From Cyathus striatus (lineage: Eukaryota; Basidiomycota; Agaricomycetes; Agaricales; Nidulariaceae): a stretch of DNA of 64,000 nucleotides. The stretch covers positions 1,860,001 to 1,924,000 of the forward strand of contig JAOVFP010000009.1 in NCBI GenBank assembly GCA_025738555.1, read 5' to 3'. The notes beneath the pieces are model-generated. The model was given only the letters and a program-made list of their open reading frames with translations. It was not told the origin of the DNA and did not search any database. The number at the start of each line of letters is the position of its first letter. Within the stretch, counting starts at the first letter, position 1. Shown piece after piece: positions 13,397 to 64,000 of this stretch. A program made the translations under genes and the position numbers.

Positions 13397-16300
13397 AGTG
13401 GTGTCAGCCAATTTTTTCATATATAGTCCAGGCTATATGATCATGCATTCCTATAAGCATTGGGTTCAATGATCACCTCTAAATTATATAGTATTCTATA
13501 CTATTAGTGATTGTAATAGTGATCATAAATGATCATTTAGGGATATAGGTGGCATATTGGGGTACTTACTAGTACTAATAGGTTTCTATGGACTATTACT
13601 TGTTCTAATGGATTTATAAATGATCATAAGTGATCATTGAGTGATGCAGATATTGTAATGGGTTATTAGTGGTACTAATGGATTTGTAAGTGATCATATG
13701 TGATCATTGAGTGATAGAGGTGGTGTATTGGACTAGTACTGGTACTAATGGGTTTGTTAGTGATCATAAGTAATCATTAGTTGATATAGGAATATTGAGC
13801 TAGTACTAGTACTAATGGATTTGTAGGTGATCGTTAGGTGATACAAGTGGCATATTGGGGTATTAAGGGTACTAATGGATTTGTAAATGACCACATGTAT
13901 CACATATGTCACATTTTGCACGTTGTCACATTTTGTCACATGTGTCACATTTGTCATTTATTTCACATGTGTCACACATATCACATTTTGCATGTTGTCA
14001 TAGTTTGTCACACATGCCACACATGTTGTCACATTTCACTTGTAAGTCACATGTGTCACATATGTCACAGTTTGTTGCACATATCACAGTCATCACAAAT
14101 ATCACAGTCACCACACATGTCACAGTTGTCACAGTTTGTTGCATTTGTCACGTATGTCACATATGTCATGTATGTTACATTTTTTACACTTGATATAGCT
14201 GTCATATCTGTCACGTTTGCTTGTATGACTCTCCTGTTATGTATATCACATATATTACATTTCCAAATCTGTCAAATTTTGCTCATATGTAATGCATGTC
14301 ACACCTTTCACATTCCTGTATCAGTTACACCTTATTCATATATCACACATGTCACACTTCATTTGTATGTTGCCTTTCTTGTCAAGGTACTTTCTAGTTC
14401 AAAAAAATAGATTGCACTTTTATCTTTTTTGTGCCCACTCCCACAATCACATGAACTCTTCATTTTATCTATCCTCTGATTCTCATTCACTGTCCCACCA
14501 TTCTTGATACCTTGATGTCTCTACCATCATCAAGTTCATTCTCCCATCTTCACTTCCCACTCCCACTACTGTTCTCATTACACTCAAAGATCATGTTTTA
14601 ATTAGACAGTCAGATTTCCCTTCTCTATCCAGTTCTAATTTGGTTGTTAAATATATATCAAACACAGATCAGATTCTGATCAGCTTCATCTGAAAGTTAC
14701 CCATAGTAGATATAACTGCACTTGGCTATTAATTTTGTGTAACCTTCATCAGTCATTATATGTTCTATGAGTTTGACTTTTGAAACAATCTTGACAATTT
14801 CATCATCTTGCCACATGTCATATTTCATTCTGTTTATTCATCACATGTTCAGTAACCTAGTCTGGTATGTTGTTTTATTTATATCTTTCATTCAATTATT
14901 CCTTCTGTTGTCACATCATCTATCTCTTTGTCACACTTTCTATAACTCAATCAAATGTCATTATGTTACTGCTATATTCTTCATTCTGTTTGCATATCAT
15001 TATTACTTCTATTATGACTTTTCAACACCTTTATTCCTGTTATTATTCTCAGCTAATACACTCACAACCAAATAAAAACCAGCATGAGGAACTCAACAGA
15101 CAAGTATGCTACAGATAGTCACGAAATTTAAAATAAATAAATTCATATTAATTTTTGACATGGGGACTGCAGTGGAGGGTAGCAGAAGCAGGGAAAACAA
15201 GCTGTTTGAAAGTTTACATGTTGTGTTGGTGCTTGCACCCTTTATGGCAGATGGAGCCAGTCATTGTTTAGTAAACAATCACTAAGCATGAAGTGTGCAG
15301 CAAATTATTCTGTCATTTCACAATTAGCTGTAACAGGAGGGTCATACAAGCAAATGTGACAAAATGTGACAGATATGACAGCTATATCAAATATAAAAAA
15401 TGTAACATGGCAAAATGCAACATACATGACATATGTGACAAATGCGATAAACTGTGACAACTGTGACATGTGTGGTGACTGTGATATTTGTGATGACTGT
15501 GATATGTGCAACAAACTGTGACATATGTGATACATGTGACTTACAAGTAAAATGTGACGACATGTGTGACATGTGTGACAAATGTGAAATACATGACAAA
15601 TGTGACAAATATGTATTTGTGATGACTGTGATATGTGTGACAAACTGTGACATACGTGACACGTGTGACTTACAAGTAAAATATGACAACATGTATGATA
15701 TGTGTGACATGTGTGAAATACGTGACAAATGTAACATACATGTAAAATGTGACATGTGTGACACGCGTGACAAACTGTGACAACGTGCAAAATGTGACAT
15801 GTGTGACACATGTGAAATACATGACAAATATAACAAATATGAATTTTGTGACAAATGTGACACATGTGACAAAATGTGACATATGTGATACATGTGGTCA
15901 TTTACGAATCCATTAGTACCCTTAATACCCCAATATACCACTTGTATCACCTAATGATCACTTATGATCACTTACAAATCCATTAGTACTAGTACTAGCT
16001 CAATATCCCACCTATATCAACTAATGATTACTTATGATCACTAACAAACCCATTAGTACCAGTACTAGTCCAATACACCACCTCTATCACTCAATGATCA
16101 CATATGATCACTTACAAATCCATTAGTACCACTAATAACCCATTACAATATCTGCATCACTCAATGATCACTTATGATCATTTATAAATCCATTAGAACA
16201 AGTAATAGTCCATAGAAACCTATTAGTACTAGTAAGTACCCCAATATGCCACCTATATCCCTAAATGATCATTTATGATCACTATTACAATCACTAATAG

Positions 16301-16406
16301 TATAGAATACTATATAATTTAGAGGTGATCATTGAACCCAGTGCTTATAAGAATGCACAATCATATAGCCTGGACTATATATGAAAAAATATGGCTGACA
16401 CTTATG
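13397..16406. mobile_element. Palindromic element A (3.0 kb, GATC/TGTCAC family)
   Basis: The left end is AGTGGTGTCAGCCA and the right end is the complement of CATAAGTGTCAGCCA. The 8-bp flanks are CTCCCATG (13389-13396) and CTCCCACA (16407-16414). The differences fit an ancestral CTCCCACG that decayed to TG on one side and CA on the other. The right arm of the big duplication has the unoccupied site near 30317-30330. Each arm is about 1 kb and carries TGATCATAnGTGATCA units every 60-70 bp (13500-13850, 15930-16330), then TGTCAC-rich arrays (13885-14360, 15340-15900). The centre, about 14400-15300, is AT-rich and non-coding. No transposase. Confidence 0.85.
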
Positions 16407-17565
16407 CTCCCACACCAAAGCTTAAGGCCTCAAGGTGAGCACTGCAGTGCCTCTTCAGACAGACTGCTGGGTCCAATACACTGAGATGTGTCCATGACCA
16501 CAAGCAAGCATAGCAGTCTGGGCACCATATCATCTGCATCCAATGACCACCATGCCAATAACCACCACATCATGCACCATGACCTGCTGCCATTTGAGCT
16601 TGAACAAGTGTGGCTCATGAGCTACTGAGCAACCAATGTCTTCCTTCCTCCTAAGCCCTGTGACTGAAATGTGTCAAGGTTTCACACAGTGAATGAGTAC
16701 ATCTCTCACTCCATGGTAACTGGGGTTCTATAACAAGGGGCACTTATGCACCTGCCTCCTCCCTCTGATCCCCATGCATGCATACCAATTCATTCCCACT
16801 CATCCTAGCAGCCTCCTATGACATCATTTACATTTTGAATATGCCTACCTCACTGTTGACCACAGTACCCTCATCTCTACCACCTCCAGTCGACAAGGCC
16901 CTGAATTGGAGACATGATCTACCTCAACCTGAGTGCATGATGTGTTTACATTGTTGCTCAGTTGGAGGAGCTATAAGTGGGATTATGGATGACACATAGG
17001 GGTTGATAAGATGCAGGGAAGTATGATTATGTGTGTGATTGAGGGTGAGGGAGATGACAATGAGCATGGTATTTGCCAGATGCTGAAGGAGACTTTGCTC
17101 TTGCAGGAGAAGGTAAGTGATCAGCAGTTGCTACACAGTACTTGGGGAGTACACTATGCTGGGGAAGAACTAATACCTCTTTACGCTATGCATAGAACAT
17201 ATAGAAAGTGAGCATTAATGATTACTGCAGGCTTGTGCTTGGTGGAAAGGGAAATTTAGATTGTTGAATTGCCAGGGATATATGAATCATCGAAGGCCCA
17301 ACTTCATCATATTGGTGTTGAAAAGTAAGTATCAGTTGACTAGTGCACATTCTATTTCTGTGGTTATCAATTTATCAATAATTATCAATGGTCCAGTATG
17401 TTAGGTCACTAAGATTAGATTGTATGTAGGAGTGCATGTAATAGAAGACATGCATGCAAATGGTCCCAAGTTTCAGCTTTGATGCTCATTGAAGTGCATA
17501 AATTTAAATAACTGTTACCGGTGGGAAAGAGATGAAATGTATGCCAGCTTTGAATCACCAATACA
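16407..17565. other. Innermost part of the left arm
   Basis: This stretch pairs with 29190-30320 in reverse complement, including candidate splice signals (GGTAAGTGATC near 17112). It is strongly CpG-poor compared with the partner. Frames are short in both copies. No gene is called. Similarity stops about 17565, just before the minisatellite. Confidence 0.6.
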
Positions 17566-17870: not shown

Positions 17871-17877
17871 GTCTCTT

Positions 17878-20800
17878 CATAAGTGTTAGCCAAAATTATC
17901 ATAAAAATGTAGTGTTTTATAATTGCCGCAATCATAAATAATGATCACCTTCATGATTACACATTTTGAGAGCTTATCCACCTATTAATACTAAATCTAA
18001 TAGTGATCATAAGTGATCATTGGTTATTTTGAAGTGAATATTACTACTGTAGGTCTATATAATGTGGTGATCATATGTGATCATTGGCTGATTTTGAAGT
18101 GAATATTACTACTGTAGGTCTATTGTAATATGGTGATCACATGCGATTATTAGCTAATTTGAAGTGAATATTACTACTGTAGGTCTATTGTAATATAGTG
18201 ATCATATGTGATCATTAGCTATTTTGAAGTGAATACTATTACTGTAGGTCCATTGCAATATGGTGATCATATGTGATCATTAGCTATTTGAAGTGAATAT
18301 TACTATATTGTAAGGTGATCATATGTGATCATTGACATATTTTGAATTGAAAATTATTACATATTGCTCTTGTAGTTCATATCACATCTGTCACGATCTC
18401 CCCGCATGTCACATATTTCCCGCGCTTCACACAATTCCCGCGCATCTCATAATTCCCGTGCTCCACATCATTCCCACACTCTGGATAATTCTGGTGCATC
18501 TTCCCGCATGTCACAATTGTCATGATCTTCTCATGTGTCACATATTTCCCTCACTTCTAATAATTCTCACGCTCCACATCATTCCCGCGCACCGCATTTG
18601 TCACCTTCTTCCCACGCGTCACGATTGTCACAGTTTTACATGTGTCATGATTGTCATACCTTTAGATGTGTCACAATTGTCACGCTTTAACACGCGTCAC
18701 GATTGTCACGCATTTACATGTGTTATAATTGTCACACTTTTCACATGCCTCATGGTGGTCACGCTTTTATAGCCGTCACATATGTGATATATTTCCTGCA
18801 TGTCACAATTGTCAAGCTTTTACATGTCACATTCATCAACACTAGTGTTGGCATAATTAGTCAATGGTGGTCATATTATACACCATTCAATCTATAGATA
18901 AGTTGATCAAATATTGATGGGATCCCAACAGATGACAATTGTTCCCATACCTTTCATGATCTAAGAATAAAAGTATTGAGTGACACCACATTTAATTCTC
19001 ATTCTCAGTTCATTGCTTAGCAATGTAATTCAGTCTCTTACATTGACTAGTCATTGATTAATCTGTCAACTGTCAATCATTAACACATACTTTTTTGACA
19101 GATGAGGTCTGATCCTGTTGATAACATTGTTGCACATGACCATAGAGAAATGATATTACATTATTAAAGAGAAGAGAGGAGAAGGGACAAAGGAGCCCTT
19201 CAGTAAAGAGAACAAGAAAAGAAGGCAATGTCATAATTAACACAGAAAAGTAAGTAAATAACAGCAACTGAGCAAGAAAGTGCTAAGTACAAAATGGAGT
19301 TTTCAGATATCAGAATGAATACTAAAACTAAAAGAGTGAGTAGAAGTGAAACTGATTGAGACACAATAAGATAGTTTTCATTAACTCCCCATTTCAATAA
19401 AACATAGAAAACTATCATGTAGTCATATAGAGTAAGCAGTTATGTGATTTGGTAATGTGTGTTGAAGATATTAGTATAATCAATGGCCAATGCAAGAATC
19501 ATAATCATTTAAATGCTGTAATGTGTAAGTTTGATGTAATGTGAAATCACATCTATACACTATCCATTCATATGTGTTAAACATGCAAGGTCTATATTCT
19601 TCTGTCTGGTTGGTACATGTTTTCATAATGTTTAATACCATTGTAATGACCTCATCATCTTTCATACCTAGACTAACCATTATGGTTATTATTTTGTCAT
19701 TTTATCACATCCCTAGTCATGATTGTAAAAGATGGCATACCATCTCATTTCCAAATATATCATACACTTTAAATAGGACTAAGATTCCAACTACATATAC
19801 ACTCTACATCCTCCAATCTAGTTTCTTATTACTGTTACACTTCCATAACATCATACTTGTCATATACTATGTTACAACCTTCAATTGTACAAGTACATAT
19901 TCATTTACTCTGATTTTTATAATTCGCTCTGTGGTTTCAGATACTTAATCTGCTGCTGTGACCATTTGGGTGGTGATACAGATGTACCAGAAACTGCACA
20001 TGTGGTTGGCTTCCCTTATTCAGAGTTAAGTTTTAGGTACCTCACAAACCTCCTCTTAACTATGTCACTGGCCCCACTAAGTAAGAGGCAATAATTAGTA
20101 CACATATCTATTATTGTTATACTCTTTGTCAGATAAACAAAAGTTAAAATAATCTACATGATATTATAGGCTAAAAATGTGACAGCTGACATGAATGAAA
20201 AATAATGACATGTTGGAAATATGTCACATATGTGATAGGCAAAAATGCGTGACAATCATGATGCATGTAAAGGGTGACCATCGTGACACATGTAAAGGTG
20301 TGACCATTGTGATGCATGTTAAAGCATAACCATCGTGACGCGCAGGAAGAACGTGACAAATGCGGTGTGTGGGAATGATGTGGAGCATGAGAATTATTAG
20401 AAGCGAGGGAAATATGTGACACACAAGAAGATCATGACAATTGTGATGTGTGGGAAGTATGTGACACATGGGAAATATGTGACACATAGGAAGATCATGA
20501 CACACAGGAAGATCGTGACACACAGGAAGATCATGACACACAGGAAGATTGTGACAATCATGATGCACCAGAATTATCCAGAGTGTGGGAATGATGTGGA
20601 GCACGGGAATTATGAGATGCGCGGGAATTGTGTGAAGCGCAGGAAATATGTGACATGCAGGAAGATCGTGACAGATGTGATATGAACTACAAGAGCAATA
20701 TGTAATAATTTTCAATTCAAAATATGTCAATGATCACATATGATCACCTTACAATATAGTGATATTCACTTCAAATAGCTAATGATCACATATGATCACC

Positions 20801-21183
20801 ATATTGCAATGGACCTACAGTAATAGTATTCACTTCAAAATAGCTAATGATCACATATGATCACCATATTACAATAGACCTACAGTAGTAATATTCACTT
20901 CAAATTAGCTAATGATCACATATGATCACCATATTACAATAGACCTACAGTAGTAATATTCACTTCAAAATCAGCCAATGATCACATATGATCACCACAT
21001 TATATAGACCTACAGTAGTAATATTCACTTCAAAATAACCAATGATCACTTATGATCACTATTAGATTTAGTATTAATAGGTGGATAAGCTCTCAAAATG
21101 CATAATCATGAAGGTAATCATTATTTATGATTGTGGCAATCATAAAACACTACATTTTTATGATAATTTTGGCTAACACCACT
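17878..21183. mobile_element. Palindromic element B (3.3 kb, GATC/TGTCAC family)
   Basis: It begins CATAAGTGTTAGCCA and ends with the complement of AGTGGTGTTAGCCA. The 8-bp flanks are TGTCTCTT (17870-17877) and TGTCTCCT (21184-21191), one mismatch. Outer arrays of TGATCATATGTGATCAT units at about 62-66-bp spacing lie at 18005-18340 and 20725-21065. Inner TGTCAC/GTGACA arrays with CCCGCGCTTCAC-type words lie at 18370-18840 and 20170-20690. The centre, 18850-20160, is AT-rich without a gene. Open frames in the arrays are low-complexity Cys/His strings that follow from the repeat. Confidence 0.87.
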
Positions 21184-21339
21184 TGTCTCCTCCCCCCCCT
21201 GTACCTTGTCTGGCAAATGATGAGGTGCTGCTCTACCTCCCCTTTGCACCTTGTCTGGCAAACAATGAGGTGCTGTTCCACCTCCCTCCACCTCATCTTA
21301 CAAATGATGAGGTGTTCTGTCTCCTCCCCCCCCTGCACC
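21184..21339. repeat. Hairpin minisatellite, middle piece
   Basis: Three units of the same type as 17629-17870 (TTGTCTGGCAAATGATGAGG and variants) are present. The left boundary is the target duplication of element B and the right boundary is the target duplication of element H. Confidence 0.75.
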
Positions 21340-22595: not shown

Positions 22596-23739
22596 CACTG
22601 CATGCATGCCTCGATACTTCAATGTGAAATAGCTTTGAAATATCGTGGAAATATTCTTTATATTACATCATTATTTCGCTTTGTAATACTCTTACAATTC
22701 ACATACGATATTTCTCACATATTTGAAAGTCACAATAACAAAGAAATATTGAAACCCAGATCCCCATTTTCTTTGAAATTCTTTATTCAATATTTCAAAG
22801 GTTTTTCACCTATGAAATAACAAAGAAATATTTATTTGGGTAGTCACAATGAGCTTTGTCTACCTTTGTCTCATCTTTGTGACATATGTCAGGTGTCCCA
22901 CAGTGTTACACTTGTCGCAGTCATCACAGTCGTCGCAGTGTCACACTTGTCACAGTCGTCACAGTTGTCGCAGTTGTCGCAGTTGTCGCAGTTGTCACAG
23001 TTGTCACAGTCGTCACAGTTGTCGTAGTTGTCACAGATGTCACAGATGTCGCAGTCGTCACAGTTGTCACAGTCGTCACAGTTGTCACAGTTGTCACAGT
23101 CGTCACAGTTGTCACAGTTGTCACAGTTGTCACAGTTGTCACAGTTGTCGCAGTTGTCGCAGTTGTCACAGTTGTCACAGTCGTCACAGCTGTCCCACAG
23201 TGTCACACATGTCGCAGTCGTCACACTTATCACAACTGTGACAACTGTGACGACTGCGACATGTGTGACATGTGTGACAACTGCGACAACTGTGACAAAT
23301 GTGACAAGTGTAACACTGTGAGACACCTGTGACGGCTGTGACATTGTGACATTGACACTGTGGGACAAGTTTGATGACTGTGACATATGTCACAATGCCA
23401 CTGTGACTAAGATCTTGCTAAGATCTCTTAGATAAGAACCTTGTGACATATGTCACAAAGATGAGACAAAGGTAGACAAAGCTCATTGTGATTACCCAAA
23501 TAAATATTTCTTTGTTATTTCATAGGTGAAAAACCTTTGAAATATTGAATAAAGAATTTCAAGGAAAATGGGGATCCAGGTTTCAATATTTCTTTGTTAT
23601 TGTGACTTTCAAATATGTGAGAAATATCGTATGTGAATTGTAAGAGTATTACAAAGCGAAATAATGATGTAATATAAAGAATATTTCCACGATATTTCAA
23701 AGCTATTTCACATCGAAATATCGAGGTGTGCACGCAGTG
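22596..23739. mobile_element. Element G: CACTA-like non-autonomous element
   Basis: It starts CACTGCATGCATGCC and ends with the complement of CACTGCGTGCACACC, with TIRs of about 294 bp (22596-22889 and 23446-23739). It is flanked by TAA at 22593-22595 and 23740-23742. CACT termini with 3-bp duplications are the hallmark of the EnSpm/CACTA superfamily, although such long TIRs are unusual for it. The inside is a minisatellite of GTCACAGTTGTCGCAG-type units. No transposase. Confidence 0.82.
22905..23325. repeat. GTCACAGTT/GTCGCAGTT minisatellite inside element G
   Basis: This is a dense array of 9-bp units (GTCACAGTT, GTCGCAGTT, GTCACAGTC) from about 22915 to 23235. It then runs as the reverse complement to about 23325, making the centre palindromic. 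It retains CpG in GTCGCAG units although the surrounding DNA is CpG-poor. The long open frames across it (Val-Thr, Cys-Asp or Ser-Gln-Leu strings) are products of the 9-bp period. Confidence 0.85.
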
Positions 23740-24214
23740 TAAGAATAAAGAATAGAGTATTCAAATGAAGCACAGAGCTTGGGAGTGAAGCACAGGGCTT
23801 CATCATGACACACAGAGCCTTAGAATGAAGTAGCACGAAGCACACATCTTCAGTATGAGTCTAGAGCTGACTCCATTATAGTGATGCTGACTTCATTCTG
23901 ATAGTTTCAGCATCATAAAAACAATACCGGCTTAACTATATGTACTGACTAATCAATATGATGCTGAACCCTGCAAGCTCAACAAAATACATAACTGAAA
24001 TATTGTCACAACAGTTCAAACTAGATAAATTAAGCACATTTACATTACTATTACACTACATTGAATTATAATTAAGTATGTTACATATTTTTGAGCTTGG
24101 AATAATTAATGGGTTCACATGGGTCATGGGTTCAATGAAGCTGACCTGCACCCATACCCACTGGCACCCTTACCTGTGACCCATATGGGTATACTCAACC
24201 CATGCACATCCCTA

Positions 24215-25820: not shown

Positions 25821-28800
25821 CTAAGAATAGTATCTACCCCAGAGTTCCAACTGCTCAGCATCTGCCCATTTCCCCTGATCTCTATATATAATTGCCAAAT
25901 TACCCATGCTTAAAGTTGTGTCAGGATGCTCCTTTCCAAGAATCCTTTCCCTCATATTCAGTACCTGAGCCTCCAACTGCTCAGCATCTACCCATTTTTC
26001 TAGCTTTGAGAAAGTGATTGCCAAATTATTCATGCTTGAAAGTGTATCAGGATGCTCCTTTCCAAAAATCCCCTCCATCATATCCAGCACCTGAATCTGT
26101 AACTGCTCAGCATCTGCCCATCTTCTTTGGTTCTGGAAAGTGGTTGCCAAATTACTCATGCTTGAGAGTGTGTCAGGATGTTCCTTTCCAAGAATTCTTT
26201 CCCTCATATCCAGCACCTGAATCAGCAACTCCTCAGCATCTGCCCATTTTCCTAGCTTTTGGAAAGTATTTGCCAAATTATTCATGCTTGAAAGTGTGTC
26301 AGGATGCTCCTTTCCAAGAATCTTTTCCCTCATATCCAGCACCTGAATCTCCAACTGCTCAGCATCTGCCCATTTTCCATGGTATGAGAAAGCATTTGCT
26401 AAATTACCCATACTTGAGAGTGTATAAGGATGCTCCTTTCCAAGAATCCTTTCCCTCATATCCAGCACCTGAATCTCCAACTGCTCAGCATCTACCCATT
26501 TTCCTAGCTTTTGGAAAGTGTTTGCCAAATTATTCATAGTTGAAAGTGTGTCAGGATGCTCCTTTCCAAAAATCTTTTCCCTCATATCCAGCACCTGAAT
26601 CTCCAACTGCTCAGCATCTGCCCATTTTCCTAGGTTTTGGAAAGTGTTTGCCAAATTATTCATGGCTGATAGTGTATCAGGATGCTCCCTCCCAAGAATT
26701 CTTTTCATCATATCCAGTACCTGAATCTGCAACTCCTCAGCATCTGCCCATTTTCCTAGGTTTGAGAAAGTGCTTGTCAAATTAACCATGCTTGAGAGTG
26801 TGTCAGGATGCTCCTTTCCAAGAATTCTTTCCCTCATATCCAGCACCTGAATCTGCAACTGCTCAGCTTCTGCCCATTTTCCTAGCACTGAGAAAGTTAT
26901 TGCCAAATTATTCATGCTTGTTAGTGTGTCAGGATGCTCCTTTCCAAGAATTCTTTCTCTCATATCCAGCACCTGAATGTGCAACTGCTCAGCATCTGCC
27001 CATTTTCCTAGGTACCAGTATGTCATTGCAAGGTTAGCAACTGTTACAAGTGTAGTACATAGTTTAGAAGTGATTTTAAAATTTAATTCCTTGGATGCCT
27101 CTAAGTACATCTGTTTAATAGTTTTCAAACTATTTGATATGTTTTCAACCTTTCCCACTAATTGCTTGAGATGAATGTGTGTAGTTTTTAATTTATATTC
27201 CTCTTCCAAGTCATATTTTCCATTGTTATTCAGTAAAATAGCTGACATTCTGAATATATCATCATAATACTTCATATTATTTATATTTTTGCCACTTTCT
27301 AAGTTTTGAAGAAAGTGAGGTAGTAGAGAAGTCATGTATACATATTCTTGTGTAGTGTCTTTTGCTGAAACTGAGCTTACTATTATTGCTTTAGCATTTA
27401 GACTCCATACTTTTTTATCATCAATGGATAATCTATCTTGGCAGTATGTATGTACCAGTGGATGTAATCCATATAATGATGCCTTTGTTGTTTTCTTTAT
27501 TAATGAAAATGAAAGGAGCAGTTCAATACTCTCTGTAAACAGCCAGTCATTCCATTCTTCAAAATCATCCATATTTAGTGTTGCGACATTCATTAAGGGC
27601 AGATATGAAGGTATATCATCATCATTGTACCACTCTTTTTTTATTAAGAAGTACTTTGCAGCTCTTTCAAATGTTGATTTGGATATATTTTCATAGTGAA
27701 AAAATGCAAAGGTATTTAAAAGTGTTATAGCATAATTTGCTGTAGTTTTAGTTTCCTTATTTTCTTTATCATTTGATAATTCTATTATCTTTTGAAATGA
27801 AATTTCCCAGGTTCTATAAACTGTTTTATTGTATCCTGATGCACCTCTGAACTTTTCATGATTTAAGATCTTGGGTCTATATTTGTCATAGAGTTTTAAA
27901 AATTCAATAAATTCACATTGAACTTGAGCTATATAAGCTCCAGCCATATCAATGGCTAGTGGTAGATAATGCAATTTTTGAACTATGATTTTTGCTTCTT
28001 TCAAGTGCTCTTCAGAATCCTTATCAAATCCACTTGTTTTGAAAAGTAGATCAATGGCAGTCTCTTCAGTCATTTCAGATACTTCCATTGAGTTCTTATG
28101 TGTTGTAATTCTTCTTAGAGCAGGATTTCTGCTTGTAATCAAGATATTCCCTATATTCCCTGGGGGGAGAAACTTTTCAACCAGTTCAGGAGAGCCATCA
28201 GCATTGTCAAATATCATAAGCCATTCAGATTTAAGGTTGGTAATCCAATTAAGCACTGTAGCAGAAGAGAATGAAGATGCAGAAGTTCCTGAAGTAGAAA
28301 TCTTCTTATATATTTCCTTCAGACTTTGAACAATTGTATCTTCAGATGTTGTATCAATCCAAAAGACATAGGCAAATCTATTAAAATTTCTTAGTCCTTT
28401 AACAATGATGATGACCAAGATGTATACTCACTGGCCAGCCATATCATCATTAAACTTCAGGCAGATCTGAGTCTTTCCAATTCCACCCATTCCATGCAAC
28501 AGGAACATTTTTCTCTCAGTAGTGTTACCAAGTCTAAAATGTTCATGAAGTTTCTCAAGGTACAGGCTGCAGTGGATTGAAGAGGGGACAGTGGTTCATC
28601 CTTTGGTTGATTGTTTATGATCTGTAGATATAACAAGATCAGTATAAATAAATTCATAATATGACATAATATACTAAAAGAGTTACCTGAGTATCAATCC
28701 TGATATTATTCATTTCAGCATGCCCAATTACGAAGTCATGAGCATTTGAAAATGGTCCATTATCTCCCCCTATGATCATAGGTATGATCCTACGAAAGAG

Positions 28801-32651: not shown

Positions 32652-33724
32652 AAGAGTTCCGCCTTACTACCTAGAGGCAAATCACCCGCCTTGCCACCGC
32701 GTGCTAAAAGCCGTTTTTATAGTCATGATCATGCTCAGGATGGGGTTCCGCCTGTTCTTCGTCCTGGCCCGATGACGCAGAATAGGCTGAGCTTCCGGCT
32801 AGCTTTTTGGCGATGCCGCAGCCTATGGCCGTCCTTGCTGGCGTTCGTGTTCAGTGTTGTTGGGGAGAAGAGGTCACCTTCATGTGAGAGCCAAAGTGAT
32901 TCATAGGTACGTCTTAATTATACTATGTGAATGGACAACAGTACTGGTCTTGCTGGTGTCTCCATCACTGGCGCCGTCTGTTTACCGGGCTTGTCGATTC
33001 TGGGCGGCTCTTGAGCTCATGATCTAAAGTAAGTTGACCACGGTAGTGAGTGCCCTGACGTGCTCTACCATGTCTACCTATTCACACCTGGAACCGCCAA
33101 CATCTCAGAATGCACATATTGTGAACAATCCACCTCTTCTCATACCCACCCATGATCAGCAGCCTCAAACGCAGGTAGTATAGCGAGTTGGATACCGCGG
33201 CGAAGGCAAAAGTTGAGCGGGTTGGAGGGTGTCGGTTGTGTGTTTTGAACTCGGTACATTTATATTCTTTATTTCCTCTCTTATACCCAGATAATGTAAC
33301 GTTTCGGTGAAATACAATAAACAATGCCTATACAGACCTTAACCAAAGCCAACTAATATGCTATACTTGAGACTACCACTGACATCCTGTTACTCAATAT
33401 ACATTCAAGAATCTTGAAGTGGCACTGGATGTGGTATGCATTCCTTACGCATCCACAAACAATCAGACAGGAAACCTGTGTCACGATGAGTCCTTGGTAG
33501 GGCAAAAGGTATACATAACGACAGAGAACAAGGTCTCCGCGGAGAAGACAAGGTTACACACAAGCTGTAAAGTACCGTTCTGCACATACGAGGTTGATGA
33601 TTGATGGTGGGGAAGCCCTACGTAGGAGATGAGGTCGAAACTAGCACTTAATGCTGCGAAGACAAGCAACTAGTCTGTGTTCCGTGGTGGTGATGAATGT
33701 GCAGCCAGTAGTAAGTAGAATAGG

Positions 33725-34047
33725 TGTGAGAAGTAACAAAGAATAAGGAGAGTGGTTGAGAGAGAATAGAGGATAATGAAGAGCAAAGAAGGTGATAGTG
33801 GAGCAAAGACTCAAACACAAACACTGACACAGACACAAGATGGGGAGGAAACTTTGTTTACAACTATCAAGTTACAGAGTGTTTATATACTGGGTGTATC
33901 TACCAAAGTCCAACCAAGGTCCTGTAACTAAGGTAACTGACAGCTGTCAATCTGTCAATCAAGTATCTGTCAATCACAGAACTGTCAAGTATGACAGGTG
34001 ACAAGTGACAGCTGTCAAAGAAGCTGTGCAACCCTGAATATCTAACA
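33725..34047 (+). mobile_element. Solo LTR (323 bp) with ATAGG target duplication
   Basis: It begins TGTGAGAAGTAAC and ends TATCTAACA, with ATAGG on both sides (33720-33724 and 34048-34052). The left arm shows the empty site at 6113-6117 (CCTAT on the plus strand). TG...CA ends plus a 5-bp duplication are diagnostic of LTR retrotransposons. A TATA-like GTTTATATAC lies at 33881. A block of about 90 bp rich in TGTCAA and TGACAGCTGTCA (33930-34018) is absent from the related LTR at 53588-53809. Confidence 0.88.
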
Positions 34048-52080: not shown

Positions 52081-52114
52081 CATATATTACCTCAACCTTC
52101 CTCATCTGCTGCAG

Positions 52115-55100
52115 CATAAGTGTCAGCTAATTTGGATCATAAAAAGCCCAGGTTTTATGAAAAAGTGATCACAAAATCCCTGACTTCCATGATCACTACT
52201 AAAATCTAATGGTATTCATTATTATTAATGAATGTATGAGTGATCAAAGGTGATCATTGGATGTTATAATAGTGTATGATGGATATTAAAGGGCATATTT
52301 ACTACTAATGAATACTAATGAATGTGAAAGTGATCATAAGTGATCATGATATGATATAATGGTGTATTATAGTGTGTAATGACTACTAGTGAATACTAAT
52401 GGATGTGTAAGTGATCATAAGTGATCATGGTATAGTATAATGGTGTACTATAGTGTGTAATGACTACTAGTTAATACTAATGAATGTGGAAGTGATCATA
52501 TGTGATCATGATATGTTATAATAGTGTTTAATAGTGCATAATGACTACTAGTGAATACTAATGAATGTAGAAGTGATCATAAGTGATCATGGTATGTTAT
52601 AATAGCATATTATTGTGTGTAATGCCTACTAGTTAATACTAATAAATGTAAAAGTGATCATAAGTGATCATTGTATAAATAATAGCATATTAATTTATAA
52701 ATGAATATAGGAATATCACATTTTCCCACATGTCACACCTGTCACGCTCGTCACATTCGTCACATATGTCACGCTCCACATATTTGTCACATATGTAGTA
52801 TTTGTTATACTTGTCACACTTGTTGTGTATGTCACATATGTCACACCTGTCACACCTGTTACATATGTCACGTATGTTGCATTTGTCATACTTGTCACAC
52901 TTGTTGTGTATGTCACACCTGTCACACCTGTCGTATTTGTCACATATGTCACACGTCTCATGTATGTCACACCTGTCACACCTGTCGTATTTGTCACACA
53001 TGTTATGCATGTCACATTTATTATGCATGTCACATGTCTCATGTATGTCATATTTGTCACATGTGTCACAGTATGAATGTCATCCTCATATTTGTCACAC
53101 CTGTTGTATATGTCATGTATGTGCATTTGTCACACTTGTCACACTTTTTATACATGTCACACCTGTTATATATGTCACATTTATCACGCATATCACATTC
53201 TTACATGTCACGCTTGTCAGATTCGTCACACCTGTCACGCTCGTCACATATGTCACATATTTTACTACTTGTCACATATGTTTCACTTATCAATTCCATC
53301 TGTCACAAATGTCACCCCTTCCCTATATGTTACAAATGTCACATTTTCTGTATTTGTCATTCCTTTCCTGTATGTTACACTTGCACCCATATCACACTTG
53401 TTATGCTTTACATTTACACCTTTCCCACATATCATTGTTAGCATATTGATCTCACAAGTAAATTTACTTGCCATACAGATTACATCTATCACAAATTTTA
53501 CCACTTGTCACATATGTCCCCCTATATTACCACATGCCATGCTTTTCTTTTCCTGCTACCCATCACACCATTTCTGCCACCAATTGTTGTCTGAAGCAAC
53601 AAATAATGAAGGGGGGTAGGTTGGGAGAGAGGGGGGTGATAAGAGATGAAAAGCTCAGACACAGACACAGACACAGACACAGATACAAATACAAATAGGA
53701 GGAAACTTGTGGTCAACTATCAAATTACAGGGGGTTTATATACTAGAGTTATCAACCAAAGTCCTACCAAGGCCTGAACCAGAGGCTGTACAACCCAGAA
53801 TATCTAACATTGTACCTTTCCTGCCACCTGTTGCACATTTCACACTTTCCCTATTCACCACCACATCCATCACATCTTTTCTCATATATCACATAGTACT
53901 AATTGTGTACTACCTTCCTACTATCACATCTCTTATCTCTTTGTCTTACTTCATGTTTAGTCCAATTGTGTTGTTTAATTCATGTCACTCATTCTACTAT
54001 GGTTCCATGTTATTGTTAAAACTTATAACTTTCTAATGTCTCAAGTCTTGATGTCAATATGATACTGTTTTCATGTCCTACTAGTACTTATCTATTCATA
54101 TATGATAAGTGTTATATGAATAATGCTTGAAGAGTGTGACAGGTATAACAGACAGGAAAAAGGGTGACAGATGTGGAAAGCATGACATTTGTGACAGATG
54201 AGAGTAATAAGTGTGATATATATGACCAGTAGTAAAATGTGTGACATATGTGACGAGTGTGACGAATCTGACAAGTGTGACATGTAAGATAAATGTGATA
54301 TGCATGACAAGTGAGACAAATCTGATAAGTATGACATGTAAGAATGTGATATGCATGACAAATGTGATATACATAACAGGTGTGACATGTATAAAAAGTG
54401 TGACAAGTGTGACAAATGCTACATACATGACATATACAACAGGTGTGACAAATATGAGGAGCGTGACATTCGTACTGTGACACATGTGACAAATGTGACA
54501 TGCATAACATGTGGGACATGTGTGACATACGTGACAAATATGACAGGTGTGACAGGTGTGACATACATGAGACGTGTGACATATGTGACAAATACGACAG
54601 GTGTGACAGGTGTGACATACACAACAAGTGTGACAAGTATGACAAATGCAACATACGTGACATATGTAACAGGTGTGACAGGTGTGACATATGTGACATA
54701 CACAACAAGTGTGACAAGTATAACAAATACTACATATGTGACAAATATGTGGAGCGTGACATATGTGACGAATGTGACGAGCGTGACAGGTGTGACATGT
54801 GGGAAAATGTGATATTCCTATATTCATTTATAAATTAATATGCTATTATTTATACAATGATCACTTATGATCACTTTTACATTTATTAGTATTAACTAGT
54901 AGGCATTACACACAATAATATGCTATTATAACATACCATGATCACTTATGATCACTTCTACATTCATTAGTATTCACTAGTAGTCATTATGCACTATTAA
55001 ACACTATTATAACATATCATGATCACATATGATCACTTCCACATTCATTAGTATTAACTAGTAGTCATTACACACTATAGTACACCATTATACTATACCA

Positions 55101-55411
55101 TGATCACTTATGATCACTTACACATCCATTAGTATTCACTAGTAGTCATTACACACTATAATACACCATTATATCATATCATGATCACTTATGATCACTT
55201 TCACATTCATTAGTATTCATTAGTAGTAAATATGCCCTTTAATATCCATCATACACTATTATAACATCCAATGATCACCTTTGATCACTCATACATTCAT
55301 TAATAATAATGAATACCATTAGATTTTAGTAGTGATCATGGAAGTCAGGGATTTTGTGATCACTTTTTCATAAAACCTGGGCTTTTTATGATCCAAATGG
55401 CTAACACCCCT
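52115..55411. mobile_element. Palindromic element C (3.3 kb, GATC/TGTCAC family), inside the Helitron
   Basis: It begins CATAAGTGTCAGCTA and ends with the complement of AGGGGTGTTAGCCA. The flanks are TGCTGCAG (52107-52114) and CGCTGCAG (55412-55419), an 8-bp duplication with one T/C difference. Outer TGATCATAAGTGATCATG units repeat every 82-83 bp (52230-52670 and 54850-55340). Inner arrays of CACATATGTCAC-type words lie at 52725-53520 and 54130-54810. The translated arms are identical over about 100 codons, which indicates recent origin or homogenisation. The centre, 53530-54090, holds a solo LTR. No transposase. Confidence 0.88.
53588..53809 (+). mobile_element. Second solo LTR, in the centre of element C
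   Basis: It begins TGTCTGAAGCAACAAATAA and ends TATCTAACA, and matches the LTR at 33725-34047 over its ends and the TATA-containing block near 53732. Flanks read ATTGT (53583-53587) and CTAACATTGT at the right, consistent with a 5-bp duplication plus loss of one A. It lacks the TGTCAA-rich block of the other copy. A (CAGACA)n microsatellite lies inside it at 53656-53689. Confidence 0.75.
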
Positions 55412-55419
55412 CGCTGCAG

Positions 55420-58400
55420 AATTGCTAACCAATCTAACCAACTTCAACAAGCAAGATGATCCAGAAAATGAATTGAATTCAAGAATTGGTAATACTTTTA
55501 ATATATTCTTCTTTTTCAAACTTACATTTCTTTTTGAAGAACGAGGCAAACCTATGTACCTTAGATGAGTAAAAAAGAAGAAATTATTTAATATTGCAAG
55601 ACAACCTTATCGCGATCCAACATCACGACATTATCTTGGTCGGATGGATATAGAATGCAAATATTGTGGGGCTCTTCATTGGATGGATGAGAAATTAACA
55701 GATACAAGTTACAAACATCCAGAATTTGGAATGTGTTGCAATAAAGGAAAAATCCGCTTGCCACGTATGCAGCCACCACCAGCAGTCCTTCAAAATTTGC
55801 TTGAAAGCGAGGATGGTTATGCAAAAGAATTTCGAGATAATATCTATAGATATAACTGCACATTTGCATTCACATCTATTGGTTATGATGGTGGATATCA
55901 AGATCATGATATAAATGATGGACATGCATATCCAATTTTCCGTATGTGTGGACAACTTTATCACCTTTCAGGTTCATTGGACCCACATGGAGAAACACCA
56001 CGATATGCTCAGTTATATATATATGAGCCACGACTTGCTCTGGCTGCCAGAATGAAAAATAATACAGATTTAAAATGTTATATATTGTGTCCCTTGCAAG
56101 AAATGTTGAATGCACATCATAAATATGTACCAATCTATAGGTATGCTTATAAAATTATTTCATAATATTAACAACTTATTATGAAGCTGTTGTACAGATA
56201 TGCATTTGAAATCATCCAACAATATCCAGGTCCTATAGAGGATGCTGAAGTTCGACTACAGCTGCTGCCAGGATTGGATCCACGCAGATATAATTTACCA
56301 ACCATGGATCAAGTGGCCGCTATTATTCCTGGTGATGTAGATAGGAAACCAACTGATGTTGTTCTTCACTGTCGACAAGGACCTCATGCTTTCAATAGAA
56401 TTAGCAATCTTCATCCTGCATATTCTCCACTTCAATATCCACTGCTCTTTCCATATGGAGAAAATGGATGGCATCCAGACATGAAACTATATCTTACCGA
56501 GGAGGAAAGAAGGGAATGCAAACAAGATCGATTAACTCTTAGTCAATGTGTTGCAGAGCGAATACATTCACATCGAGATGAATATAACACAATACTTCAT
56601 GGTGGTCATTTATTGCAAACATACATGGTGGATATGTTTTCTGCAGTAGATCAGCAATGCCTTAGCTATCACCAGTTTCATCAACCACAGATACGAGCAG
56701 CTCACTTCAGTGGCTTACAAGATGTTTCAATGGAGGATGGAGAGCACTTTGACCTAAATGAACTAGGATGACGCATTATTCTACCGTCATCGTATGTTGG
56801 AGGACCACGGAATATGACACAAAACTTTCAGGACTCAATGGCTCTTGCTCGATACTACCGAAAGGTGGATATTTTTCTCACAATGACAACAAATTCAAGC
56901 TGGGACGAGATAGTCAATGAGTTATTACCAGGACAAACTGCCTATGATCGACCGGACTTGGTTGTTCGAGTTTTCGAGATGAAAAAAAATGTGCTGATAG
57001 ACTATATCTATAGATGCGGTGTCTTTGGAAAGGCTGTTGCATACGTTTACACTATTGAACACCAAAAGCGTGGCTTACCACATGTTCATCTTCTCATATT
57101 TCTAGAGCAACCACACAAATTGTACACAACAGAGGCCATTGATTCATGCATATCAGCAAAATGGCCTGATCCTCAAACCCATCCTTTATTGTTCAACACA
57201 ATAAAAAAACAAATGGTTCATGGACCATGTGGAGTATTAAATCCTCACACTTCATGTATGGTAAATGGAAAATGTAGCAAAGGCTACCCAAAACCATTTC
57301 AACCATTCACAACAATGGATAAAAATGGATTTCCTTTATATGAGCGTCCAGATGATGGCCGATACTATAAAGTTGGCAAATACTGGGTTGATAACTCATG
57401 GATCATTCCCCACTCACCTTTTCTTTGTGAGGACTTGGATTGTCATATTAATGTTGAATGTGCTGTTTCCATCGCGAGCATAAAGTATCTTTTCAAATAT
57501 ATTCATAAAGGTCCAGATTGCAGTACTATGGAACTATTGCATGATGAAATCAAACATTGGGTGAATGGAAGATTTATCACACCAGACTCTGCTGCCTTTC
57601 GCATGTTTCATTTTGATATACATCATCAAACACCTTCAGTTCAATGTTTGCAAATTCATCTGCCAGGACATCAGTTGGTAACATTCGATCCTAACAAAGA
57701 TATTAATACCATTATTGCACGAGGTCTCCAACAAAGGACAACACTAACGGCATATTTTGAGGCAAATACAGATGGCAGTGGTATTTGTAATGAAGCATGC
57801 AAATACACATATCAAGAATTTCCGCAACACTTTACCTGGGATAACAATAACAAAATATGGAAAAAAAGAAAGCGTAATCAATTCTCAATTGGTCGAATGT
57901 ATTCAGTCAAACCAACCAGTGGGGAGCAATTTTACCTAAGATTGTTGCTAACTATTGTAAAAGGTATGAAACTTTTATAATTCTTTGAATGATCCTAACT
58001 GTTATGCTTGCTATTTATCAAAGGTGCTCAATCGTTTGATGATCTGCATAAAGTTCCTGGTAATAGCACCCCATTGCCAACTTTTCATGCTGCATGTATT
58101 GCACGTGGACTACTTAAAGATGATGGTGAATGGCGACAATGCTTACAAGAGGCATCATTCATGAAAACAGGAAAACAGCTACAGGGACTATTTGCCTCTA
58201 TCCTTCTATTCTGCAATCCATCACAACCTACTACATTGTGGAATGAATTTCATTCAGACATCTGTGACGACCTTCATTATCAACTTGAAAAAGAGGGAAA
58301 ACCAAATGCTTCTGATTGTGAAGTTTATGATTATGGTCTTTATCTTTTAGATTTTATTCTTTGTGAATCGGGGCATCCATTGAAGGATTTCCCAATGCCA

Positions 58401-59909
58401 CAGCAAGAATACAATTGGAAAAGAATATTGAAGAATCCACTAATCAGAGATCAGGAAAACTATGACTGTGATGAACTGCAACGCAACTTGGAACATGACC
58501 TTCCTATGTTGAATGATGAACAACAACTTGCATTTGACCATGTTATTCATTCTGTGCAGCAAGATCTAGGAGAGCTCTTTTTTCTGAATGGTTCTGGTGG
58601 AACGGGAAAAACCTTTGTATACAATATTATCAGCACAAAATTATGTTCTCAAGGTAGCATTGTTCTCTGTGTTTCTTCTTCAGGTATTTCAGCACTCCTT
58701 CTCATAGGAGGTCGAACAGCACATTCACTTTTCAAGATTCCCATTGATAACCTAACCGAAAATTCCACATGTAATATCTCCAAGAAATCGAATCTTGCAG
58801 AACTCATTGAAAAAACCAATCTTATCATATGGGATGAGATAAGTGCACAACATCGTCATGCAGTAGAGGCTTTGGAATGGACAATTTGTGACATTCGCCA
58901 AAGGAACACACTTTTTGGTGGATTGACAGTTGTACTCGGTGGTGACATCTTACAAACACTTCCTGTCATTCCTAAAGCATCACGAGCTGAAATTGTAGAT
59001 GCAACAATACAGCACTCTTACCTATGGGACCATGTCAACATACTACATCTTCACAGAAACATGAGAATTGAAGGCAACTCCAGTGATACATCACACTTCG
59101 CACAATGGCTACTGGATATAGGTCATGGTCGCAATTTCCTACCAGATAATATTCATGTTCAGTTGCCAGATTCCATGCGAGTTCATAATGTTGATGCTCT
59201 AATTGATGAAACCTACCCTTCAATTCATTCCAATGTTCCCCTTCCTCCAAGCTACTTTCTCGACCGCATGATATTAGCTCCACACAACAATGATGTAGAA
59301 GATATTAATCAACGAATCTTACATTATATTGCTGGAGAACCAAGACAATACATCAGTGTTGATGATGTCGTATATGAGCGAGGAGCAGGCCCAGACATTC
59401 AAGATCCAATAATTCAGCCTGAATATTTGCGATCCATCAATGCTCCAAACCTTCCACCAGGAGTATTAAATCTTAAAAACGGATGTCCAGTAATCTTGCT
59501 TCGCAACCTATCTCCATCCCAAGGACTGTGCAATGGAACCAGGATGATAATAACTCAAATGGGAGACTGTGTTCTTCAAGTTCGCCTGATAGGAGGAAAG
59601 AAAAATGGTCAAACAGCTTTCATACCCCGAATCTCTCTTGAACCACCACCAACAGCCGACATTGTTTTCAACTTTAAACGTCGACAATTTCCACTACGCC
59701 TAGCATTTGCTTTATCAATAAATAAAGCGCAAGGACAATCTGTTAAACATGTGGGACTAGATCTCCGTGTACCAGTTTTTGCACATGGTCAGCTATATGT
59801 TGCACTGTCACGAGCCACATCTGCTGAAAACCTTAAAATCTTACTACTGGAAGATGAAAAGGAATCAACGACGGTCAACATAGTATACAATGAAGTACTT
59901 ATTACTTAA
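55420..59909 (+). pseudogene. Helitron RepHel protein (HUH Rep plus PIF1-like helicase), decayed
   Basis: This is a rolling-circle transposase. The Helitron-like N-terminal domain reads RMCGQLYHLSGSLDPHGETP and ALAARMKNN (55644-56140). A 59-nt intron ends at CTGTACAG (about 56200). The Rep domain (56770-57960) has the HUH motif RGLPHVHLLIF near 57064 and the two-Tyr motif KYLFKYIHKG near 57483. A second intron (57966-58021, CTAAC branch motif) precedes the helicase: Walker A GSGGTGKTF at about 58590, Walker B LIIWDEIS at about 58820, and the C-terminal ALSINKAQGQS...VALSRA near 59710-59815. In-frame TGA codons at 55566-55568 and 56769-56771 each sit where CGA (Arg) is expected. With these stops and the element C insertion the copy is probably inactive. 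The helicase exon is intact to 59909. Confidence 0.88.
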
Positions 59910-59940
59910 ATGTAACATTCTTTTCGCTCATCAATATATA

Positions 59941-61132: not shown

Positions 61133-61140
61133 AGATCAGT

Positions 61141-64000
61141 CATAAGTGCCAGCCATTCTGATCATATAACAGCAGTGTTATATGATTGCCCCAATCGAAT
61201 AAGCCATGCCATTTTATGATTGGGATCATAAACAATCATTGAGGTTCTAATTCAATACTACTATTGTATGAATGTATTAAATGATCATAAGCAATCATTG
61301 ATTGTTTCTAATTGGATATTACTATTGTATGGATGGCTAGATGATCATAAACAATCACTGATTGTTTTTAATTGAATACTACTATTGTATGAATGTATTA
61401 GGTGATCATAGACAATCATTGATTTATCTAATTGAATATTAGTATGAATGGAGAGGCAATCATAAACAATCATTGATTTTTTCTAATTGAATATTATTAT
61501 TGTATGAATGGTGAAGTGATCATAAACAATCATTGATTTTTTCTAATTGAATATTATTATTGTATGAATGGTGAGGTGATCATAAACAATCATTAATCCT
61601 TACTATTTGAATATTAGTATGAATGGAGAGACAATCATAAACAATCATTGATTTTTTCTAATTGAATATTATTATTGTATGGATGGTGAGGTGATCATAA
61701 ACAATCATTGATTTTTACTAATTGAATATTAGTATGGATGGTTAGGCAATCATAAACAATCATTGATCTTCACTAATTGAATATTAGTATGGATGGTTAG
61801 GCAATTATAAGCAATCAATGATAACTACTAATTGGATATTGCTATTGTATGGATGTGTCACATTTCCTCACATGTCACAATTGTGACACATCTTCCCGCG
61901 CGTCACATATTTCCCGCACGTCACGTTAGTCACATATATTCCCACGTATCGTGTTCGTCTCGTGCGTCACAATTGTCACATATATTCCTGCGCTTCATAT
62001 TAGTCACACGCGTCACGCTTTTTATGCATGTCACAATTGTCACATATATTCCTGCGCTTCATGTTAGTCACGCGCGTTACATTTCCTCACGCGTCACGAT
62101 TGTCACACATATTCCCGCGCCTCACATATTTCCCGCGCTTCACACATTTCCCACGCGTCACATATATCACGCACGTCACGTTTGTCACGTTCTTTCGCGC
62201 GTCACACTTGTCACATACATTCTCACGTGTCACAATTGTCACATATATTCCCGCGCTTCATGTTTGTCACACATGAAAAGCGTGACACACATGAAAAGCG
62301 TGACACACATGAAAAGCGTGACACACATGAAAAGCGTGACACACATGAAAAGCGTGACACACATGAAAAGCGTGACACACATGAAAAGCGTGACACACAT
62401 GAAAAGCGTGACGCGCGTGAAAAGCGTGACGCGCGTGAAAAGCGTGACAAGTGTGACGCGCGAGACGAACGTGACACGCGGGAATATATGTAACAATTGT
62501 GACGCGTGTGACAAACATGAAGCGCGGGAATATATGTAACAATTGCGACGCGTGTGACAAACATGAAGCGCGGGAATATATGTGACAATTGTGACACGTG
62601 AGAATGTATGTGACAAGTGTGACGCGCGAAAGAACGTGACAAACGTGACGTGCGTGATATATGTGACGCGTGGGAAATGTGTGATGCGCGGGAAATATGC
62701 GATGCACGAGAAATGTGTGAAGCGCGGGAAATATGTGAGGCGCGGGAATATGTGTGACAATCGTGACGCGTGAGGAAATGTAACGCGCGTGACTAACATG
62801 AAGCGCAGGAATATATGTGACAATTGTGACATGCATAAAAAGCGTGACGCGTGTGACTAATATGAAGCGCAGGAATATATGTGACAATTGTGACGCACGA
62901 GATGAACATGATACGTGGGAATATATGTGACTAACGTGACGTGCGGGAAATATGTGACGCGCGGGAAGATGTGTCACAATTGTGACATGTGAGGAAATGT
63001 GACACATCCATACAATAGCAATATCCAATTAGTAGTTATCATTGATTGCTTATAATTGCCTAACCATCCATACTAATATTCAATTAGTGAAGATCAATGA
63101 TTGTTTATGATTGCCTAACCATCCATACTAATATTCAATTAGTAAAAATCAATGATTGTTTATGATCACCTCACCATCCATACAATAATAATATTCAATT
63201 AGAAAAAATCAATGATTGTTTATGATTGTCTCTCCATTCATACTAATATTCAAATAGTAAGGATTAATGATTGTTTATGATCATCTCACCATTCATACAA
63301 TAATAATATTCAATTAGAAAAAATCAATGATTGTTTATGATCACCTCACCATCCATACAATAATAATATTCAATTATAAAAAATCAATGATTGTTTATGA
63401 TTGTCTCTCCATTCATACTAATATTCAAATAGTAAGGATTAATGATTGTTTATGATCACCTTACCATTCATACAATAATAATATTCAATTAGAAAAAATC
63501 AATGATTGTTTATGATTGTCTTTCCATTCATACTAATATTCAAATAGTAAGGATTAATGATTGTTTATGATCACCTCACCATTCATACAATAATAATATT
63601 CAATTAGAAGAAATCAATGATTGTTTATGATCACTTCACCATTCATACAATAATAATATTCAATTAGAAAAAATCAATGATTGTTTATGATTGCCTCTCC
63701 ATTCATACTAATATTCAATTAGATAAATCAATGATTGTCTATGATCACCTAATACATTCATACAATAGTAGTATTCAATTAAAAACAATCAGTGATTGTT
63801 TATGATCATCTAGCCATCCATACAATAGTAATATCCAATTAGAAACAATCAATGATTGCTTATGATCATTTAATACATTCATACAATAGTAGTATTGAAT
63901 TAGAACCTCAATGATTGTTTATGATCCCAATCATAAAATGGCATGGCTTATTCGATTGGGGCAATCATATAACACTGCTGTTATATGATCAAAATGGCTG
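61141..64000. mobile_element. Palindromic element D (GATC/TGTCAC family), cut by the window end
   Basis: It begins CATAAGTGCCAGCCA. The last bases of the window, ATATGATCAAAATGGCTG, are the inverted copy of the start and lack only the final few terminal bases. Outer arrays of TGATCATAAACAATCATTGA units, about 55-70 bp apart, cover 61200-61840 and 63020-63930. Inner TGTCAC arrays with TTCCCGCGCTTCA words cover 61855-62270 and 62460-63005. The two arms give the same translation over more than 80 codons. Unlike elements A and B, D sits in DNA that is not generally CpG-depleted. No transposase. Confidence 0.87.
62271..62450 (+). repeat. 18-bp tandem array at the centre of element D
   Basis: Ten units of ACATGAAAAGCGTGACAC; the first eight are identical and the last two change CACACA to GCGCG-type sequence. 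It lies off the symmetry axis of element D, so it is an expansion on one arm only. Confidence 0.9.

Follow-up and report, generated by a model that had tools for sequence, protein, structure and literature searches.

A stretch of 64,000 nucleotides (nt) from the Cyathus striatus genome (GenBank assembly GCA_025738555.1, contig JAOVFP010000009.1, positions 1,860,001 to 1,924,000; hereafter the window) contains four inverted-repeat elements, A, B, C and D. These are insertions of one dispersed superfamily. It is very likely that the elements are non-autonomous foldback DNA transposons, mobilised in trans by CxC2/KDZ transposases of larger elements with the same tips. A preliminary description of the window had presented A to D as a mobile family of palindromic elements with asymmetric termini, and our examination of inverted repeats and tips bears this out.

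The superfamily is recognised by its tips. In the genome (107.45 megabases (Mb) in 24 contigs; the window is C9:1860001-1924000), exact CATAAGTGTYAGC, from the left (L) end, occurs at 486 sites, and exact GGCTRACACCACT, from the right (R) end, at 247; the reversed-pattern controls gave 5 and 3 sites, respectively. The full tips are the 15-mers CATAAGTGTYAGCCA (L) and GAGTGGTGTYAGCCA (R), with a boundary one base further out than previously described. Each begins with five end-specific bases, CATAA at L and GAGTG at R, followed by GTGTYAGCCA, which is common to both ends. The two near-identical arms of an element are distinguished mainly by these few bases at the extreme tips. Within the window, GTGTYAGCCA is found at 5 sites (0.41 expected by chance) and TGATCATANGTGATCA, with up to two mismatches, at 49 (0.51 expected).

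Pairing of tips was scored among the matches listed, which for this purpose were 100 L and 48 R places on contigs C1-C3; overall, the listed places cover L sites on C1-C3 and R sites on C1-C6, and one arm family was followed genome-wide. L and R tips less than 12 kilobases (kb) apart were in the expected arrangement 28 times, and in the other three arrangements 7, 6 and 1 times. Unmatched flanks and random spacing or orientation of the termini, which the preliminary description had named as evidence against its proposal, are therefore not what the listed places show; flanks match in 31 of 36 L/R elements, as detailed below. Twenty of the 28 pairs were fetched whole, five were checked at their ends, and three, which have an end in common with another pair, were not used. 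Regions L076, L077, L078 and L080 yielded no complete element and were dropped. Our core sample consists of 23 elements (L056-L075 with A, B and C), oriented by the CATAAG tip.

The longest ungapped arm match in each of the four window elements is 380 to 921 nt at 98-99% identity, and the array units of A, B, C and D are 70, 65, 81 and 60 base pairs (bp) long. The order of terminus, TGATCA array, TGTCAC array and centre, previously described as fixed, is kept in A, B and C; D has both arrays, without a separate core. As the preliminary description had also held, we saw no convincing coding frame within A-D, where the long frames mostly traverse TGTCAC arrays. Rfam searches, made on A and B only, gave matches that were all below gathering scores. 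The features are as follows.

13396..16406, minus strand: element A, R tip 13396-13410, L tip 16392-16406
13389..13395 (CTCCCAT) and 16407..16413 (CTCCCAC): 7-bp duplication of A, 6/7 matching
13588..13832: outer array of A, 70-bp unit with TGATCATAAGTGATCA
13892..14180: inner TGTCAC array of A
14237..15062: core of A, 86% identical to the L070 core (A-class)
15427..15896: inner GTGACA array of A, other arm
15898..16212: outer array of A, other arm
17878..21184, plus strand: element B, L tip 17878-17892, R tip 21170-21184
17871..17877 (GTCTCTT) and 21185..21191 (GTCTCCT): 7-bp duplication of B, 6/7 matching
18003..18305: outer array of B, 65-bp unit with TGATCATATGTGATCA
18401..18769: inner TGTCAC-type array of B
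19108..19950: core of B, 71% identical to the L074 core; class with 453 candidate places
20249..20653: inner GTGACA-type array of B, other arm
20757..21059: outer array of B, other arm
52115..55412, plus strand: element C, L tip 52115-52129, R tip 55398-55412
52108..52114 and 55413..55419 (both GCTGCAG): 7-bp duplication of C, 7/7 matching
52301..52671: outer array of C, 81-bp unit
52732..53276: inner TGTCAC array of C
53365..54214: core of C, unlike those of A and B
54239..54812: inner GTGACA array of C, other arm
54852..55227: outer array of C, other arm
61141..64009 (last 9 bases beyond the window), plus strand: element D, tips CATAAGTGCCAGCCA and GAGGGGTGCCAGCCA
61134..61140 (GATCAGT), second copy at 64010-64016, outside the window: 7-bp duplication of D, 7/7 matching
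61224..61855: outer array of D, 60-bp unit with GATCATAAACAATCA
61874..62271: inner TGTCAC-type array of D
62268..62449: centre of D, 10.1 copies of the 18-bp unit CACACATGAAAAGCGTGA
62408..62986: inner GTGACA-type array of D, other arm
63005..63926: outer array of D, other arm

The core of C has 57 bp in common with the A-class core of L070, and 208 bp of it are 73% identical to window positions 33719-33924. The outer-array motif TGATCATAAGTGATCA includes the initial 8 bases of the L tip, CATAAGTG (13621-13636, 18004-18019 and 52331-52346). In D, GTGCCAGCCA replaces GTGTYAGCCA at both ends, as though one end had passed the change on to its counterpart.

Insertion of the elements duplicates 7 bp, not the 8 bp previously described. 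With an assumed 8-bp duplication, flank identity in the 23 elements is 78%, compared to ~28% for shuffled pairings. Within the 8-mer, however, the first position matches in only 6/23 elements and the other seven in 19-22/23 each; positions neighbouring these seven match in 2-7/23. In 21/23 elements, ACCACT (ACCCCT in element C) is followed by a C. Hence, this base belongs to the element and the duplication is 7 bp long, which is why the 8-mers noted earlier usually contained a mismatch. The 7-mers are perfect in 16 of the 23 elements, have one mismatch in three and two mismatches in one, and are absent from three (L064, L071 and L075). D and L079 have perfect 7-mers, as do three of the five end-checked L/R pairs (the other two are unmatched) and five of six further pairs from arm family E (the sixth matches at 6/7). 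In total, 31/36 L/R elements are alike at at least 5 of 7 positions and 26/36 are perfect, with 0.46 expected by chance. Two of the five L/R pairs that lack a duplication span 5 and 7 kb and may not be single elements.

What mobilises elements with no convincing coding frame of their own? KDZ transposons are common in fungi, and the genome contains 159 matches to PF18758 (KDZ; best 150 of 169 candidates scored) and 151 to the hAT dimerisation domain (best 150 of 361 candidates scored). The scored and listed matches to KDZ, hAT and Plavaka on C1-C6, where coverage of C6 ended at 5.2 Mb in the case of KDZ and hAT, were reduced to one per gene and compared with the first 100 of the 247 R termini. 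An exact R terminus lies 2.9-5.3 kb downstream, on the same strand, of 8/36 KDZ matches, all of which read towards the terminus; random placement gave a mean of 0.28 and a maximum of 4 in 1000 runs. None of the 36 has a listed R terminus within 6 kb in any other arrangement, and none of 57 hAT matches has one within 6 kb in any arrangement. Plavaka is present in the genome and was rejected as a partner, with 0/34 matches near a listed R terminus. A Mutator/MULE partner was also rejected, since PF10551, the only MULE model searched, has no match in the genome.

One KDZ-bearing element with both tips was seen. It occupies C2:1201755-1218948 (17.2 kb). Its ends are inverted and contain 102-bp arrays, and its right half encodes the CxC2 and KDZ domains. 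A transposase gene bounded by the same termini, for which the preliminary description suggested searching, was thus found once, though between unmatched flanks. Over about 190-510 bp, five ends of four KDZ-bearing loci are 65-92% identical to ends of the arm families to which they belong: family E ends match L053 at 82-92% over 192-296 bp, family H ends match the C2 element and L052 at 65-82%, and L004-type ends match L051 at 77-81%. For L051, L052 and L053 we found the R end only; no L tip (up to two mismatches) was present in the 7-8 kb fetched. The joined KDZ exons of L053 retrieved 84 relatives, of which 84 contain KDZ and 78 CxC2. The 82 named relatives come from Cyathus, Laccaria, Amanita, Galerina and other fungi, all of them Agaricomycetes.

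We propose that a KDZ protein encoded elsewhere, by larger elements with the same tips, would mobilise the palindromic elements in trans. It would bind the arrays, the subterminal array probably being a set of transposase binding sites, and would cut at the unlike tips, with insertion then duplicating 7 bp. We infer the KDZ protein as mover, its binding to the arrays and the need for two different tips from sequence. Four observations weigh against this proposal. First, the flanks of the C2 element are unlike, so it may be a recombinant. Second, the KDZ match of that element is interrupted by one stop, which may lie in an intron. Third, among the loci described here, no KDZ-coding copy was found that combines both tips with matching 7-mers. 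Fourth, an exact R terminus is missing from the 6 kb downstream of 28/36 KDZ matches on C1-C6; hence, many KDZ genes may lie outside the superfamily or their ends may have changed.

Copies with two identical tips bear on the role of the tips. Three L/L and two R/R pairs less than 5 kb apart have unlike flanks (2-3/7 positions alike), and a duplication is found in 0/5. Two family E L/L pairs, 11.4 and 15.0 kb apart, are alike at 1-2/7 positions and may not be single elements. Compared to 31/36 for L/R elements, Fisher's test gives p = 3.4e-4 for the five identical-tip pairs and p = 2.5e-5 for all seven. These counts include three of the eight inward-facing L/L pairs within 12 kb, those less than 5 kb apart; the other five, 7-10.5 kb apart, were not counted (some share an end with an L/R pair), and their 7-mers are also unmatched (1-4/7). 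Because none of the identical-tip copies examined carries a duplication, the polarity for transposition is probably a property of the tips. It is plausible, if not proven, that insertion requires two unlike tips and that these supply an obligatory polarity. In the family E pairs read (L107-L118, L062, L074, L075 and L079), the L tip has GTGTCAGCCA and the R tip GTGTTAGCCA, so polarity there extends one base beyond the five tip bases. We read the identical-tip copies as the outcome of exchange from one element to another, as for chimeric Galileo (PMC3573991, in part). The family offers a natural experiment on end polarity, in which L/R, L/L and R/R copies occur side by side and the arms differ consistently only at the tips.

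The main rival for the identical-tip copies is misassembly. Long palindromes are difficult to assemble and a false join would yield unlike flanks, so these copies could be assembly errors that say nothing about polarity, with the asymmetry of the tips a mere trace of ancestry. The five L/R pairs that also lack duplications, two of them perhaps not one element, fit such a view. However, matching 7-mers were assembled at both ends of 31/36 L/R elements, indicating that most palindromes were read through, and Galileo chimeras in long scaffolds likewise lack duplications in the available passages of one report (PMC3573991). We regard misassembly as possible but doubtful, and prefer exchange between elements.

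Inverted repeats are present in 23/23 elements of the core sample, with a best local arm match of 74-99.7% identity over 31-80% of each half. TGTCAC arrays are also present in 23/23, with TGTCAC mainly in the left half and GTGACA mainly in the right; to this extent the recurring architecture described previously holds in the core sample. Long, internally repetitive inverted repeats thus flank a variable middle, which is the structure expected of foldback elements. Element lengths are 2.2-4.3 kb, so we rejected classification as miniature inverted-repeat transposable elements, which are under about 0.8 kb. The GATC-type outer array is less general than had been described: 20/23 elements contain TGATCA and 3/23 have none. 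We rejected the TGATCA pair as a universal motif on this count; in addition, a 12-bp spacing from TGAT to ATCA occurs at least twice in only 9/18 end types. At the thresholds used, the 500-bp ends form seven groups of at least four, five pairs and two singles. A predicted hairpin at bases 16-85 has a mean z-score of -3.1 across 19 end types, compared to -0.04 to -0.76 at five control offsets, but was rejected as a universal feature because only 10/19 end types have z < -2 (the rest range from -1.6 to +2.2).

TGTCAC/GTGACA reaches 15.9 per kb in A, B, C, D and two further stretches (six in all), compared to 0.83 per kb in the rest of the window. This concentration, the recurrence of the hexamers in unrelated elements, and core blocks that are alike across arm families would also be expected if the inner array or the core were a functional part, such as a host factor site or a non-coding RNA, for which the element is retained. 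We consider this unlikely: the Rfam matches of A and B fall below gathering scores, and we found no function for the core, which is rich in insertions and deletions, is of another kind in C, and is lacking in D.

The two arms are homogenised within elements. In 39 within-family pairs drawn from 21 elements, 1706 sites in the first 600 bp group the arms of one element, while 13 group same ends and 17 are crossed. Close pairs concur, with 14:0:0 for L058/L069 and 17:0:0 for L061/L067 (arms : same end : cross). Weak or mixed pairs, L057/L068 (12:3:6) and L056/L060 (13:0:8), count on the other side, as does the fact that the pairs have elements in common. Since they are not independent, the tally does not amount to a formal test; the wide family H weighs most.

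Many elements have homologous cores, and the strand of the matches shows that a core may point either way with respect to the tips. Hence, the earlier statement that the elements differ in most of their sequence holds for A-D among themselves but not genome-wide. Inverted cores are 97.9% identical between L069 and L070, 91.8% between L061 and L067, and 92.2% between B and L057. All ten family E L/R pairs found genome-wide (up to two mismatches) have the core; seven, including L074, share one orientation and three are inverted (C4:2134292 at 98%, C3:2756260 at 97% and C18:1650252 at 95%). Crossing-over between arms would be the simplest account of core inversion. Core E, the class of B, has 453 candidate places (best 40 of 453 scored), and at least 8 near full-length matches to the A-class core are listed.

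One core can also be found between different arms. The cores of L059 (H arms) and L026 (L004-type arm) are 92% and 86% identical, respectively, to that of L074. The L059 core is 79% identical to that of L061, and the L059 arms are 80% identical to those of L061 and 66% to those of L075 over 353 bp. Arm-swapping between elements is thus supported, though not proved. When H- and E-armed elements are compared, similarity declines outward from the core through the TGTCAC zone, which could be a place of exchange. At the edge of core E (L074:1080-1100) lies CATAAGTGTTACTTATG, which resembles the L tip and is also found at the core edge of L081; it may be what is left of an internal end. When the arms of an element recombine or undergo conversion with each other, they would stay alike and the core would flip; exchange between different elements would swap arms or cores and leave identical-tip copies. 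A more extensive scheme is tentative: modular foldbacks whose arms and core can be exchanged as cassettes, with the TGTCAC arrays as the recombination zone, arm conversion fitting both ends to a new KDZ transposase, and the five terminal bp as an obligatory left/right code for transposition.

Grouping of the arms of one element would likewise be expected if each palindrome were of recent and independent origin, one end having been duplicated in inverted orientation, with no continued exchange. This is quite unlikely, since members of one arm family have the same single-copy core at 92-98% identity, and their ancestor was therefore probably already a palindrome around that core. Moreover, separate duplication does not account for a core whose orientation relative to the tips differs in 3/10 family E elements from the other seven. 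Lastly, the hAT-type mobilisation with 8-bp duplications suggested by the preliminary description is highly improbable: although hAT domains are numerous in the genome and the 8-mers of A, B and C are alike at 6-7/8 positions, the first of the eight positions is the one that seldom matches, and hAT genes are absent (0/57) from the neighbourhood of listed R termini where KDZ genes are found (8/36).

The window contains other repeats and genes. A separate inverted-repeat element at 22598-23740, CACTGCATGC..GCACGCAGTG, has 297-bp arms at 97% identity, TAA on both sides, and a middle that is also a TGTCAC/GTGACA array; it resembles a CACTA-type non-autonomous element. A third TGTCAC-type array, at 48424-49436, has many 19-bp spacings and flanks rich in inverted GTGGAAT/ATTCCAC, and a similar 19-bp array lies at L052:1755-2600. 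Thus, the same hexamer arrays occur in unrelated elements of one genome. Directly to the right of element C are frames at 55569-59909 that we take to be Helitron-like; the frame at 57999-59909 contains a PIF1 helicase domain. A long frame at 25821-28427 contains many tetratricopeptide repeats. Two large regions, 1707-6509 and 33321-38755, are in inverted orientation, 89-95% alike piecewise and near 50% in guanine-cytosine content.

By their transposase, the elements would belong near KDZ. Within that superfamily a 7- or 8-bp duplication is expected, and 31/36 of the non-autonomous elements have one; a KDZ transposase is likewise found in elements with the same termini. Kyakuja, a KDZ group of Agaricomycotina, has 7-bp duplications and a 5ʹ CA in common with our elements (PMC12730594, in part). 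In the same passages, however, Kyakuja termini are CA..TG without terminal inverted repeats, whereas ours are CA..TC with long inverted repeats. The C2 KDZ element also has inverted repeats, unlike described Kyakuja. Hence, despite the 7-bp duplication, we do not file the elements under Kyakuja. KDZ1-3 of Cryptococcus, also KDZ elements, have been shown to transpose and carry terminal inverted repeats of 139-241 bp; as far as the available part of the report describes them, they differ in having CxC1 rather than CxC2, duplications of 8 bp or 4-8 bp, and copies of ~9-11 kb that include the transposase (PMC12810828). Zisupton and Dileera share the transposase superfamily and have 8-bp duplications, compared to 7 bp here; in the passages available, only Zisupton is described as well characterised at its ends (PMC12730594).

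The foldback form is reported to have originated in different lineages and in several superfamilies (PMC4079207, in part). Tetris and other foldbacks resemble our elements in having tandem-repeat arms around a variable non-coding middle; according to the same passages, Tetris differs in its 8-10 bp duplications, its assignment by the authors to Mutator, and the lack of an identified autonomous partner (PMC4079207). A foldback or palindromic KDZ derivative was not found in the literature searched, from which subscription journals were mostly out of reach, and the word “foldback” is absent from PMC12730594. We therefore read the foldback structure on KDZ ends as what is new, the foldback form itself being known. 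Nearest in behaviour is Galileo, a foldback of the P superfamily in Drosophila, judging from the passages available (PMC3573991, PMC4168063, PMC3688188), and its repeats hold several transposase binding sites (PMC3688188, in part). The Galileo transposase is P/THAP, compared to CxC2/KDZ here, and the fixed, unlike L and R tips and two-orientation core of our elements are not described in the Galileo passages (PMC3573991, PMC4168063, PMC3688188). The elements probably supply the C. striatus genome with hundreds of long inverted repeats, and ectopic exchange between these could lead to chromosomal rearrangements of the sort that Galileo causes in Drosophila.

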